NCBI RefSeq assembly: GCF_002813635.1
Contig: NZ_CP016382.1
Location: 496,001-560,000, forward strand
From: Spiribacter roseus
Lineage (GTDB): Bacteria > Pseudomonadota > Gammaproteobacteria > Nitrococcales > Nitrococcaceae
Length of the DNA stretch: 64,000 bases
Direction of reading: 5' to 3'
Shown here: piece after piece, positions 45,450-51,955 of the stretch
How positions within the stretch are numbered: position 1 is the first letter of the stretch
How the letters are laid out: each line of letters opens with the position of its first letter
Translations under genes and position numbers: made by a program
Notes under the pieces: model-generated
Seen by the model: only the letters and a program-made list of their open reading frames with translations
Told to the model about the DNA's origin: nothing
Database searches by the model: none

Positions 45450-47483
45450 ATGACTGACGAGACACTGCGTTTTCAGCTGCAGAGTGACTTCGAGCCCGCC
45501 GGTGATCAGCCGGCGGCCATCGAGACCCTCGCCAACAGCCTGCACGCCGGCCACCCGCATCAGACCCTGCTGGGGGTAACCGGGTCGGGCAAGACCTTCA
45601 CCATGGCCAGCCTGATCGCCAAAGAGCAGCGCCCGGCGGTGGTGCTCGCGCCCAACAAGACCCTGGCCGCGCAGCTCTACGGCGAAATGAAGGCGTTTTT
45701 CCCCAACAACGCCGTCGAGTATTTCGTCTCGTACTACGACTACTACCAGCCCGAGGCCTATGTGCCGTCCTCGGACACTTTCATCGAGAAGGATGCCTCG
45801 GTGAACGAGCACATCGAGCAGATGCGCCTGTCGGCCACCAAGGCGATCATCGAGCGCCGCGACACCATCATCGTCGCGTCGGTGTCCTCGATCTACGGGC
45901 TGGGTGACCCCACCGCCTATCTCGAAATGGTGCTGCATCTCGAGGTGGGGGAGTCCGTCGATCAGCGCCGGATCCTGCGCCGGCTGGCGCAGTTGCAGTA
46001 CGCGCGCAATGACTATGACTTCGCCCGCGGCAACTATCGGGCCCGGGGCGATGTCATCGATATCTTCCCGGCCGAGTCCGAGGACGAAGCGGTGCGCGTC
46101 GAGCTGTTTGATGACGAGATCGAAAGCCTCGCCTGGTTCGACCCGCTGACCGGCGAGGTCCTGCGTCGGGTCCAGCGGCTGACCGTCTATCCCAAATCCC
46201 ACTATGTCACGCCCCGCGACACGGTGCTGAGCGCGGTGGAGAAGATCAAGGTCGAGTTGAAGGAGCGCCTCGAGCAGCTCCAGGGCGCCGGCAAACTGCT
46301 CGAGGCCCAGCGCCTTGAGCAACGCACCCGCTTTGATCTTGAGATGATGCAGGAGCTCGGCTACTGCAACGGCATCGAGAACTACTCGCGCTATCTGTCG
46401 GGACGCGGGCCGGGCGAGGCGCCGCCGTGCCTGTTCGATTATGTGCCGGATGACGCCATGCTGTTCATCGATGAATCGCATGTCACGGTCTCGCAGGTGG
46501 GCGGCATGTACCGCGGCGACCGGGCCCGTAAGGAGACGCTGGTGGAGTATGGCTTCCGGCTGCCTTCGGCACTCGACAATCGGCCCCTGAAGTTCGAGGA
46601 GTTCGATACCATCGCGCCGCAGCGCATCTATATCTCGGCGACGCCCGGGCCCTATGAAAAGCAGCATTCCTCGGCGGTTGCCGAACAGGTGGTGCGGCCC
46701 ACCGGCCTGGTGGATCCGGCCATCGATGTGCGCCCGGCCAGCACGCAGGTCGATGATGTGCTCGGCGAGATCAATGAGCGCAGCCGGGCTGGCGAGCGCG
46801 TGCTGGTGACCACGCTCACCAAGCGCATGGCCGAAGATCTCACCGAATACCTGGCGGAAAACGGCGTCCGGGTTCGCTACCTGCACTCGGATATCGACAC
46901 CGTCGAGCGTACCGAAATCATCCGTGACCTGCGGCTGGGGGCGTTTGACGTGCTGGTGGGCATCAACCTGCTGCGCGAGGGACTGGATATCCCGGAGGTT
47001 TCACTAGTGGCCATCCTCGATGCCGACAAGGAGGGTTTCCTGCGCGCCGAGCGCTCCCTGATCCAGACCATTGGCCGGGCGGCGCGCAACGTCAACGGCC
47101 AGGCCATTCTGTATGGCGATCAGATGACCGATTCGATGAAAAAGGCCATCGACGAGACCGAACGACGGCGCGAGAAACAGATCGCCCACAACGAGGAACA
47201 TGGCATCACGCCCCAGGGCATCCAGAAGGCCATCGCCGATGTCATGGAGCGGGGCGGGGCGAGCGCGCCGGACAGTGCCGAGCACTACGCGCAGGTTGCC
47301 GACGAGGCCAAGGCCTATGCCGATCTGAGCACCGCCCAGGCGGTCAAGCGCATCAAGGAGCTGGAGCAGAAGATGCACCAGCACGCCCGCAACCTCGAGT
47401 TCGAGGAAGCCGGCAAGCTGCGTGACGAGGTCAAGCGGCTGCAGCGTCATGCGCTGGGTGAACCCGACCGGGACAGTGCGTGA
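45450..47483 (+). CDS. uvrB: Excinuclease ABC subunit B
   Basis: Nucleotide excision repair helicase-like protein that verifies damage and loads UvrC. The 677-aa product begins [20 protein letters not shown] and has Walker [14 protein letters not shown] and the beta-hairpin region [23 protein letters not shown]. Motif II is LFIDESHVT and motif [16 protein letters not shown]-terminal UVR domain (about 633-668, [26 protein letters not shown]) binds UvrC. The start region is divergent from the aminotransferase gene. Its stop overlaps the nrtR start by 4 bases, which couples a repair gene with an NAD regulator. Confidence 0.97.
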
Positions 47484-48469
47484 TCGAGCTCGACCAGCGC
47501 GCCAGTCCCGCCACGGTCGATCTGACGGCGGTCATCGTCGCCATGATCGACGGCGAGCCCTGCATCCTGACCGTCCAGTCCGGGCCGGGTGAGCCCGATA
47601 CGCTGCCCTGCGGGCCCCTGCAGCCTGATCACCGGACACTCCAGGCGGGCCTGCGCAGCTGGGTGGAGTACCAGACCGGGCTGCGGCTCGGTTACATGGA
47701 GCAGCTCTATACCTTTGCCGACCGCAACCGGGCCGGCGGCGATGACGGCCCGCCGGAACAGGACGTTCGCCCCGTCTCGGTGGCCTATCTGGCCCTGGTT
47801 CACGACGCTGATCCGCAGACCGGCCGCGCGACGGCCTGGCAGCCCTGGTATGACTATCTGCCCTGGGAGGACTGGCGCACCCAGCGTCCGCCGGTGGTCG
47901 ATCGACTGCTCGCGGCGCTGGCCGACTGGCGGGATCAGGCGCCCAGCGCGCCCAAACGCCGACGGCGGGCCGAACGGCTGCGCCTGACCTTTGCCAATGG
48001 CTCGACGCCCTGGGACGAGGAGCGCTCGCTGGAGCGTTATGAGCTGCTCTATGGCGCGCGGCTGGTGGCGGAGGCGTGGCACGACGAGGGCGCCGAGCCA
48101 CCGGAATCCGTGGCGACGCGCGTTGATCAATCCATGGCGACGGATCACCGTCGCATCCTGGCAACGGCCATGGGCCGGCTGCGGGGCAAGATCAAATACC
48201 GCCCGCTGCTCTTTGAGCTGATGCCGCCCACTTTCACCCTGCTGCAGTTGCAGCGCACCGCCGAGGCACTGTCCGGGACGCGGCTGCACAAGCAGAACTT
48301 CCGCCGCCTGGTGGAGCGCCAGCAGCTGGTTGAGGCCACGGGCCAGCATGAAACCCGCACCGGCGGGCGGCCGGCAAGGCTGATGCGGTTTCGACCAGCC
48401 GTCACCCTCGAGCGCCCGGCCCCGGGGGTGGGCATCAAGACGGGCGCTCGCAGCACCCACCGCTATTGA
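47480..48469 (+). CDS. nrtR: NrtR-type NAD biosynthesis regulator (Nudix-like plus winged helix)
   Basis: A 329-aa protein with an N-terminal Nudix-fold domain (about 10-150) and a C-terminal winged-helix DNA-binding domain (about 215-300, [42 protein letters not shown]). NrtR regulators bind ADP-ribose or related NAD metabolites through a Nudix domain that no longer hydrolyses. Here the Nudix box reads [17 protein letters not shown] and then VEYQTGL, lacking the REx2EE core, so it should be inactive. [10 protein letters not shown] is typical of NrtR. It lies directly before nadABC, with two matching dyads in between. A start codon GTG at 47480 overlaps uvrB. Confidence 0.88.
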
Positions 48470-48486
48470 TTGAACTCTGCCCGCGG

Positions 48487-48511
48487 GCTTATGCTCCAAC
48501 TCAGCATAAGC
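48487..48511. promoter_or_regulatory. NrtR operator candidate 1 upstream of nadA
   Basis: A perfect 9-bp inverted repeat, GCTTATGCT (48487-48495) and AGCATAAGC (48503-48511), with a 7-base spacer. It lies 18 bases past the nrtR stop and 51 bases before nadA. A second site with the same geometry follows at 48531-48553. Confidence 0.72.
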
Positions 48512-48530
48512 GGGATTTTGTTGACGCCAA

Positions 48531-48553
48531 TAATGCTCAGATCGAGCATAAGG
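48531..48553. promoter_or_regulatory. NrtR operator candidate 2 overlapping the nadA leader
   Basis: TAATGCT and AGCATAA (7-base spacer) repeat the core ATGCT-N7-AGCAT of the upstream site. The centres are 42 bases apart, four DNA turns. The right half runs into the AAGGAG ribosome-binding site of nadA, so binding here would also cover the start of transcription or translation. A TTGACG at 48521-48526 between the two sites is a possible -35 box. Confidence 0.68.
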
Positions 48554-48561
48554 AGCGGTTC

Positions 48562-49539
48562 ATGGCAGAGGTAATGGAGCAGACGGCCGCGGCCGAGCAG
48601 CGTTTGAAGGACGTGATTCCGCCCATCGAATGGCCCGCGCTGGAGCCCGACATCGATGCCATTCACCGCCTCAAGGCTGAACGCAACGCCGTCATTCTGG
48701 CCCACAACTATCAGACCCCCGAGATCTTCCACGGCGTCGCGGATATTGTCGGCGATTCCCTGGCGCTGGCGCGCCGGGCGGCCGAGACCGATGCCGATGT
48801 CATCGTCCAGGCCGGGGTGCACTTCATGGCGGAGACCTCGAAGCTGCTCTGCCCCGAGAAGACCGTGCTGATTCCGGATCTGGCGGCGGGCTGTTCGTTG
48901 GCCGAATCGATCACCGCCGCCGATGTGCGGGCACTGCGCGAACGCCATCCCGGGGTGCCGGTGGTCACCTACGTGAACACCTCCGCGGCGGTGAAGGCGG
49001 AATCGGATATCTGCGTGACCTCGGGCAACGCCGTGGCCGTGGTGGAGTCACTCGGCGTCGACCGGGTGATCTTTCTGCCGGATGAGTACCTTGCCCACTA
49101 TGTCGCGCTGCAGACCGATGTCCAGATCATTGCCTGGCAGGGCCACTGCGAGGTGCACGAGCGGTTCACCGGCGACGAGATCCGCGCCTACCGCCAGGCC
49201 CACGATGACCTGATGGTCATCGCCCATCCCGAGTGCCCGCCGGATGTGCTCGACGCCGCCGACCAGGTGGGCTCGACCGCGCAGATGATCCACGCGGTCA
49301 AAACCCGCCAGCCGCGACGGGTGTTGATGGTCACCGAGTGCTCGATGAGCGATAACGTGGCGGCCGAAGTGCCCGAGGTGGAATTCGTGCGGCCCTGCAA
49401 CCTGTGTCCGCACATGAAGCGCATTACCCTGCCAAAGATCCGCCAGGCGCTGGAGCAGCTTGCCCCGCGCGTCGAGATTGACCCCGGCGTGGCGGATCGC
49501 GCCCGTCAGGCGGTCACACGGATGCTGGCGGTCCAGTGA
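48562..49539 (+). CDS. nadA: Quinolinate synthase
   Basis: Condenses iminoaspartate with dihydroxyacetone phosphate to quinolinate. The 325-aa protein has three repeated alpha/beta domains with [26 protein letters not shown]. The three conserved 4Fe-4S cysteines are in AAGCSLAES (about 111), [11 protein letters not shown] and [24 protein letters not shown] and HPECPP are further matches. ATG 48562 follows AAGGAG; the frame extends upstream to 48466 but that would start across the operators. It overlaps nadB by 4 bases. Confidence 0.96.
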
Positions 49540-51098
49540 GTCGGGTTGCGGCCACGTCACCCCCAGTGATTGTCGTGGGGGCGGGGATCGCCGGGCTGGC
49601 GACGGCGCTACGGCTTGCACCGCTGCCGGTGCGGGTACTGACCGCCGGTGCCCTGCGCGAGAACACCGCCACGGCCTGGGCGCAGGGCGGCATTGCCGCC
49701 GCGCTGGGCCATGACGATGCCCCGGCCCTGCATCAGGCAGATACCGAGGCCGCCGGCGTCGGGCTGGTGGATCCGGTGGTTGCCCGGGCGGTCACGGCGG
49801 CCGCACCCGAGTGTCTCGCGCAGCTCGAGCAGTGGGGCGCGCGCTTTGATCGCACCCCCCAGGGCGATTGGGCGCTGGGCCTGGAGGGCGCGCATCGCCG
49901 GCGCCGCGTCGTGCATGTCGGCGGCGACGGCAGTGGTGTGGCGATCCTCAACGCGCTGATCCAGCAGGTCCGTTCCACGCCGTCCATTACCGTGTCCGAG
50001 AATACGCCGGTCAACGGCCTGCTGGCCGACGCCGGCGGCGTCCATGGCGTACGACTGGCGGAGGGGGCATTGCCGGGCCGCGCCGTGGTGCTGGCCACCG
50101 GCGGGCTGAGTGGGCTCTACGCCGAGACCACCAACCCCCTGGGCGCCGTGGGCGCGGGCATTGCGATGGCGGCCCGCGCCGGCGCGGGCGTCACGGATGC
50201 CGAGTTTGTTCAGTTTCATCCCACAGCCATGGCCGTGGGGCGCGATCCCATGCCGCTTGCCACCGAAGCGCTTCGCGGCGAGGGCGCGACCCTGGTCAAT
50301 GGCGCTGGCGGGCGGTTGATGGCCGATACGCCGGGCGGTGATCTGGCGGCGCGCGATGTGATCGCCCGGCGGATCCATGCGGCGTTGGCGGCGGGCGATC
50401 GGGTCTACCTGGACGGGCGCCGCGCGATTGGCAGCGCCTTCGCCGAGCGCTATCCATCGGTGCATGCCGCCTGCCGCGCGGCCGGCATCGATCCGGCCAC
50501 CCAGTTGATTCCGATCCGGCCGGCGGCCCATTACCACATGGGCGGCATCGTGGTTGATGACCGGGGACGGAGTGACCTGCCCGGCCTCTGGGCCTGCGGC
50601 GAAGTGGCCTGCACCGGGCTCCACGGCGCCAATCGCCTGGCCAGCAATTCCCTGCTCGAGGGGCTGGTGTTCGCGCGTTGGATTGCCGAAGACATTGCCG
50701 CATCGCCCGTCCGCTCAGTGGTGGATGCCGGCGATGGACCGACGCCGCCCACCGCGACGGTCCCTACCGCGTCACGGGTCGCACCGTGGATCCGGGCGCT
50801 GATGAGCCGCTCGGTAGGTGTGGTCCGGGATAACGACGGGCTGGCGCAGGCAATCGATGCCCTCTCGGCCGTGGCGTTTGATCGCGACGATCCGCAGCGC
50901 GACCATGCGCTGACCGCGCTTTTCGTCGCAACGGCGGCGCAGCGGCGCTGCGAGAGCCGGGGCGGGCACCTGCGCCGGGACTTTGCCGACACGCAGTCGC
51001 CGCCGCCAACACGGCAGGCGCTGACGCTCGCCGCGCTGTGCCCGCAGCCGCCGGCGACCTGCGAGCCGCTGGTAGCGGCAGGCGGGCCGGTCCGATGA
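49536..51098 (+). CDS. nadB: L-aspartate oxidase
   Basis: FAD enzyme that oxidises aspartate to iminoaspartate for NadA. The 520-aa protein begins with the FAD motif [18 protein letters not shown]. It has [14 protein letters not shown] and [16 protein letters not shown], the flavin segment [25 protein letters not shown], and the catalytic region [51 protein letters not shown]. The start is GTG 49536 overlapping the nadA stop. It ends overlapping nadC by 4 bases, giving a three-gene coupled operon. Confidence 0.96.
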
Positions 51099-51955
51099 GT
51101 CGTGTGGCACTGACACAACCCGGCCTTGAACCGCTGATCCGGGCGGCGCTTGCCGAGGATCTGGGCCGGGCGGGGGACATCACCAGCAATGCGGTCATCC
51201 CCGCCGATACCCCCATGGAGGGGGTCGTGCGCAGTCGCGAGGCCGGGCGAATCGCCGGAGCGGAGGCGGCGGCAATGGCCTTCAACCTGGTGGACGGGGC
51301 GGTGAACGTCGCCGTGGCACAGCCCGACGGGGCGCGGGTCGAAGCCGGCACAACCGTGCTGTCGGTGGACGGTCCGGCCCACGCGATCCTCGCGGCGGAG
51401 CGTGTCGCCCTCAACCTGCTCTGTCATCTCAGTGGGATCGCCACCGCCACCGCAGCGCTGGTCGACGCGGTGGCGGACTGGCCCGCCCGCATCGCCTGCA
51501 CCCGCAAGACCACGCCGGGCCTGCGGTCACTGGAAAAGCAGGCCGTGCGCGCCGGCGGTGGGGTCAATCACCGCTTTGGGCTCGATGATGCAATGCTCAT
51601 CAAGGACAACCACATCGCCGTGGCCGGGGGGATTGCACCGGCACTGGCGCGGGCCCGCGCGGCGGCAGGGCATCTGGTGAAAATCGAGATCGAGGTCGAC
51701 ACCCTGGATCAGCTCGATGAGGCGCTCGCCGGCGGGGCGGATGCGGTGCTGCTGGATAATATGGACCCGGCCACGCTGGCGGCGGCCGTGCGGCGGGTCG
51801 ATGGCCGCGCCGTCACCGAGGCGTCGGGCCGTGTCAGCCGCGACACGGTGGCCGCGGTGGCGGCCAGTGGTGTCGATATCATCTCGGTGGGTGCGCTGAC
51901 CCACAGTGCGCCGATCCTCGACCTTGGCCTTGATGCCGAGCCCGCCGGGGCGTAA
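51095..51955 (+). CDS. nadC: Nicotinate-nucleotide pyrophosphorylase (carboxylating)
   Basis: Converts quinolinate and PRPP to nicotinate mononucleotide. The 286-aa protein has [76 protein letters not shown] (Arg/Lys/His active-site set), [16 protein letters not shown] and [24 protein letters not shown] 51095 overlaps nadB. It ends immediately before the convergent dld gene with no gap, so a shared terminator region is not obvious. Confidence 0.96.

Follow-up and report, generated by a model that had tools for sequence, protein, structure and literature searches.

NadQ (COG4111) is reported to be a Nudix-like, ATP-responsive regulator, going by the title of a 2022 study by Minazzato as cited in later work (PMC11452294). 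In NrtR, Pfam recognises a NUDIX domain, and the effector is ADP-ribose. The NadQ family was named by comparative genomics, with the operator consensus ttATRCTCannntGAGYATaa, and nadABC is its core target in alphaproteobacteria, some betaproteobacteria and some gammaproteobacteria (PMC5343134). NrtR also controls nadABC in some bacteria, such as mycobacteria (PMC6800001). The mycobacterial NrtR motif, GTTTTCGA-N7-TCGAAAAC, is unlike the dyads of Spiribacter described below, while the C-terminal winged helix of NrtR is homologous to that of Spiribacter NadQ. The same domain is matched by AraR of Bacteroides (PF19368, 5bs6), a member of the NrtR family that controls arabinose use and whose significant similarity to Spiribacter NadQ is confined to the C-terminal domain.

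We analyzed a stretch of 64,000 nucleotides from Spiribacter roseus (the window), in which two dyads lie in front of nadABC. This locus adds one more case to the known NadQ switch, and its paired layout is general. With the NadQ regulon it shares the full-length regulator sequence, the operator consensus, the nadQ-nadABC order and the presence of two operators before nadA; it differs in having the operators 42-43 bp apart, a spacing unique to the genus in our sample, and in lacking a terminator between them.

Identity of the regulator

The regulator gene (47480-48469, plus strand, GTG start) encodes a protein of 329 amino acids that, judged by its sequence, is NadQ and not NrtR. Residues 11 to 317 match the crystallised NadQ (7q91-7q94, with 7q91 entered as 'NADQ transcription factor') at E=3.7e-82, whereas the NrtR and AraR structures show a significant match only in the C-terminal winged-helix part. 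The Pfam family NrtR_WHD (PF21906) is matched at residues 245-304 (E=9e-19), and NUDIX (PF00293) gives nothing even with E values as high as 1 allowed; PF21906 is likewise present and PF00293 absent in the NadQ proteins of genomes G008 and G009. With the NCBIfam NtrR model, which describes an ADPR-responsive repressor, the protein reaches 59 bits where 400 are required, and the match covers the wHTH part only. Twelve aligned NadQ proteins show no variation in the winged-helix region or in several blocks of the N-terminal part, and the nearest named nadQ, from an uncultured Spiribacter, is 90% identical.

An earlier note on this DNA had taken the regulator for NrtR, an identity that the full-length match to NadQ, the missing Pfam NUDIX domain and the low NtrR score overturn. 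Its description of a degenerate Nudix domain plus a winged helix holds for the winged helix; the Nudix part is not found by Pfam, but the region is covered by the match to the NadQ crystal structures. Since both the regulator and its motif are of the NadQ type, ADP-ribose is probably the wrong test ligand. By analogy with NadQ, for which ATP is the reported effector, the relevant test system shifts from NrtR with ADP-ribose to NadQ with ATP.

The GTG start of nadQ overlaps the stop codon of uvrB (47480-47483), which suggests that nadQ is translationally coupled to uvrB.

Operator pair and nadABC leader

Read directly from the window, dyad 1 is GCTTATGCTCCAACTCAGCATAAGC (48487-48511) and dyad 2 is TAATGCTCAGATCGAGCATAAGG (48531-48553), both between the end of the regulator gene (48469) and the nadA start codon (48562). 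They have the core ATGCT-N7-AGCAT in common (48491-48507 and 48533-48549), and their centres, at 48499 and 48541, are exactly 42 bp apart, as first described. In the whole genome (1,930,413 bases) the exact core occurs only in the two dyads, and the reversed control pattern has zero matches. For a tighter pattern, ATRCTCNNNNNNAGYAT, shuffles of the 64 kb window predict 0.08 occurrences, and none of them yielded as many as were seen. Compared with the published NadQ core, operator 1 on the promoter side (TTATGCTCCAACTCAGCATAA, 48489-48509) has one mismatch and operator 2 on the gene side (TAATGCTCAGATCGAGCATAA, 48531-48551) has none; neither is assigned a strand. The dyads are a regulator's operator pair before nadABC, as had been proposed, with the motif type changed from NrtR to NadQ; the protein that recognises them is presumably the neighbouring Nudix-like, winged-helix one. 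A wider regulon search of the Spiribacter genome gave, among the matches listed, at least one core mismatch in every other site, and the one-mismatch NadQ-type sites listed for the genome include no pairs. Upstream of nadQ itself, no NadQ site with fewer than two core mismatches was seen.

Profile matches bear out the nadA-nadB-nadC order after the dyads, with all three genes on the plus strand: nadA, quinolinate synthase (48562-49539, ATG start; PF02445, E=6e-114; TIGR00550), nadB, L-aspartate oxidase (49536-51098; NF005701, E=1e-193), and nadC, quinolinate phosphoribosyltransferase (51038-51955; TIGR00078, E=2e-95). The Shine-Dalgarno element of nadA, AAGGAG (48550-48555, plus strand), abuts operator 2 and shares two bases with it (48550-48551), so that the overlap with the ribosome-binding site reported earlier exists but is only marginal.

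The best promoter candidate in Spiribacter is a putative sigma-70 element, TTGATT-18-TATGCT (48466-48495, plus strand), whose -10 would lie inside the left half of operator 1. TTGATT/G and the 18-bp spacer recur in each of the four Spiribacter genomes that have nadQ, even in one where the nadQ stop codon does not overlap the candidate. A promoter scan of the window returned no consensus promoter and also missed TTGATT-18-TATGCT, which is weak by consensus. Another candidate, TTGACG-17-GAGCAT between the operators, was rejected because none of the other three Spiribacter genomes retains TTGACG there.

Conservation in Spiribacter and exchange in its family

Alignment of the relatives shows that both dyads are kept wherever Spiribacter keeps the regulator and nadABC: the four nadQ-bearing genomes retain operator 1, operator 2 and AAGGAG, with spacings of 42, 42, 42 and 43 bp. 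The 21-22 bp that separate the operators, on the other hand, diverge. Operator 2 abuts the nadA Shine-Dalgarno element, itself conserved, in five of five aligned family members. The genes nadQ, nadA and nadC co-occur in exactly the same four of the 14 Spiribacter genomes. De novo NAD synthesis is accordingly patchy across this set (G000, G009-G021), and a match to the nicotinate phosphoribosyltransferase family above the Pfam cut-off is found in all 14 genomes. A clean empty nadQABC site was not found in the Spiribacter genomes lacking nadABC, where the flanking oxidase gene is differently neighboured in G010 and G014.

Four other genera of the family (g2, g3, g4 and g6) encode a shorter protein directly before nadA. 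Two such proteins were scanned, and both contain NUDIX (5e-12 and 4e-13) together with NrtR_WHD; going by the domains of these two examples, the proteins are true NrtR. Spiribacter and genus g5 have NadQ with paired dyads instead. Five NrtR-type nadA leaders from the four genera (L088-L092) contain neither a long intergenic dyad nor a NadQ-type site. Therefore, with dyads missing from the NrtR leaders and paired in the NadQ leaders, the two systems are separate. At L088-L092 a true NrtR gene occupies the place of NadQ before nadA, an exchange of regulators at the same operon.

NadQ sites across the phylum

We searched the nadA upstream regions of 83 genomes, comprising 78 nadQ-bearing genomes from across the phylum and five of the family of Spiribacter. 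In 80 of them the 350 bp before nadA contain a site with no more than a single mismatch, whereas 0.0024 are expected per shuffled region. Two sites precede nadA in 53 of the 83 NadQ genomes, representing 24 genera. The layout, which the earlier note had regarded as specific to this locus, is thus the norm for NadQ, and its spacing and promoter geometry are now described across lineages. Spacings cluster by lineage—22-30, 33-34, 42-43, 55-59, 62-76 and 104 bp—and those of 42-43 bp are found in Spiribacter only. NadQ loci as a family do not follow a rule of same-face spacing, since phasing at 10.5 bp gives a Rayleigh p of about 0.12 over 35 partly related values. The four-turn spacing on one helix face, also put forward earlier, holds inside Spiribacter but gives way to no clear phase elsewhere.

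The two sites of a pair are of unequal quality: the upstream site is imperfect in 50 of the 53 pairs (one or two mismatches), and the downstream site is perfect in 44. By eye, the upstream site overlaps the promoter in several lineages, where TTGAC immediately precedes it and the right half of the site (for instance, TAGCAT) takes the -10 position; in other lineages the promoter apparently lies just upstream of the first site or, in Methylobacterium, between the operators. Kiloniella and relatives (L050, L046, L049, L043, L044) have three NadQ-type sites before nadA, spaced by about 36 and 58 bp.

Proposed regulation of nadABC

We regard it as highly probable, on comparative grounds, that the locus is a one-operon NadQ regulon in which dimers on both dyads would repress nadABC and ATP would relieve the repression. 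NadQ, encoded just upstream, would bind as one dimer per 21-bp dyad. On operator 1 it would sit over the promoter's -10 region. On operator 2 it would obstruct either the first steps of elongation or access to the beginning of the leader. The effector, ATP as reported for NadQ, would bind the Nudix-like N-terminal domain and release NadQ from the DNA, allowing transcription of nadABC. Simple ATP-relieved repression of this kind appears the most likely mode.

A refinement of the NadQ explanation is that in Spiribacter, though not as a rule of the family, it is important that the two NadQ dimers bind cooperatively or with looping; we think this rather unlikely, and the confidence placed in it overlaps with that placed in the NadQ explanation itself. 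The spacing of 42-43 bp, held while the sequence between the sites diverges, speaks for such cooperation. However, it is held in four genomes of one genus only, the short leader itself may set the distance from promoter to start codon, and relatives have out-of-phase spacings.

Much less probable is an ADP-ribose-responsive NrtR system, with cooperative same-face binding at four turns as its specific design. The regulator does end in an NrtR_WHD domain, the spacing is constant in the four Spiribacter genomes, and a further genus of the family has a spacing of 63 bp, or six turns. The NUDIX and NtrR results argue against it, as does a full-length match that belongs to NadQ, with similarity to NrtR mainly in the wHTH. 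A four-turn design is further at odds with the spacings elsewhere (22-28, 30, 33-34, 55, 59, 62-76 and 104 bp), which show no convincing phase. The least probable reading makes the dyads RNA hairpins, operator 1 a terminator and operator 2 a structure masking the ribosome-binding site, and not protein sites: operator 1 with GGGATTTTGT scored terminator-like, but G021 and G009 do not retain the T run that follows operator 1, the motif sequence is fixed across lineages without free compensatory changes, and an Rfam search of nine nadA leaders found no known RNA element.

Terminator-like hairpins between distant operators

Among 28 genomes with NadQ operators at a distance of 50-110 bp, 17 have a terminator-like hairpin with a T run behind it in the interval, on the nadA strand. 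The hairpin and T run are found in most members of 10 of the 13 long-spaced genera, whereas shuffles of the interval predict 3.2 genomes and 1.8 genera. These genomes are not an independent sample, and the hairpin criteria were set after examples had been seen. Under the same criteria, equal-length stretches just upstream score in 3/28 genomes and the opposite strand in 1/28, which ties the hairpin to its place and its strand. Hairpin-bearing nadA upstream regions include L175, L185, L186, L193, L134, L172, L155 and L197. A literature search limited to open-licence papers found no published report of a hairpin between the operators. The window has no such hairpin, as the 21-bp interval is too short to leave room for one.

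The inter-operator hairpin is a possible attenuator. More tentatively, nadA leaders may combine two layers of control, namely paired operators and, if these are 50-110 bp apart, a terminator, so that early termination is also set, either by NadQ bound to the downstream operator or by the RNA of the leader; Spiribacter might then represent a reduced version depending on two dimers held four turns apart. If real, the terminator would mean that many alphaproteobacteria also control NAD synthesis by attenuation, a layer so far unrecognised. By eye, a short GGCC(T)-like element is often present between the T run and operator 2, for example in L134, L186, L188, L193 and L197.
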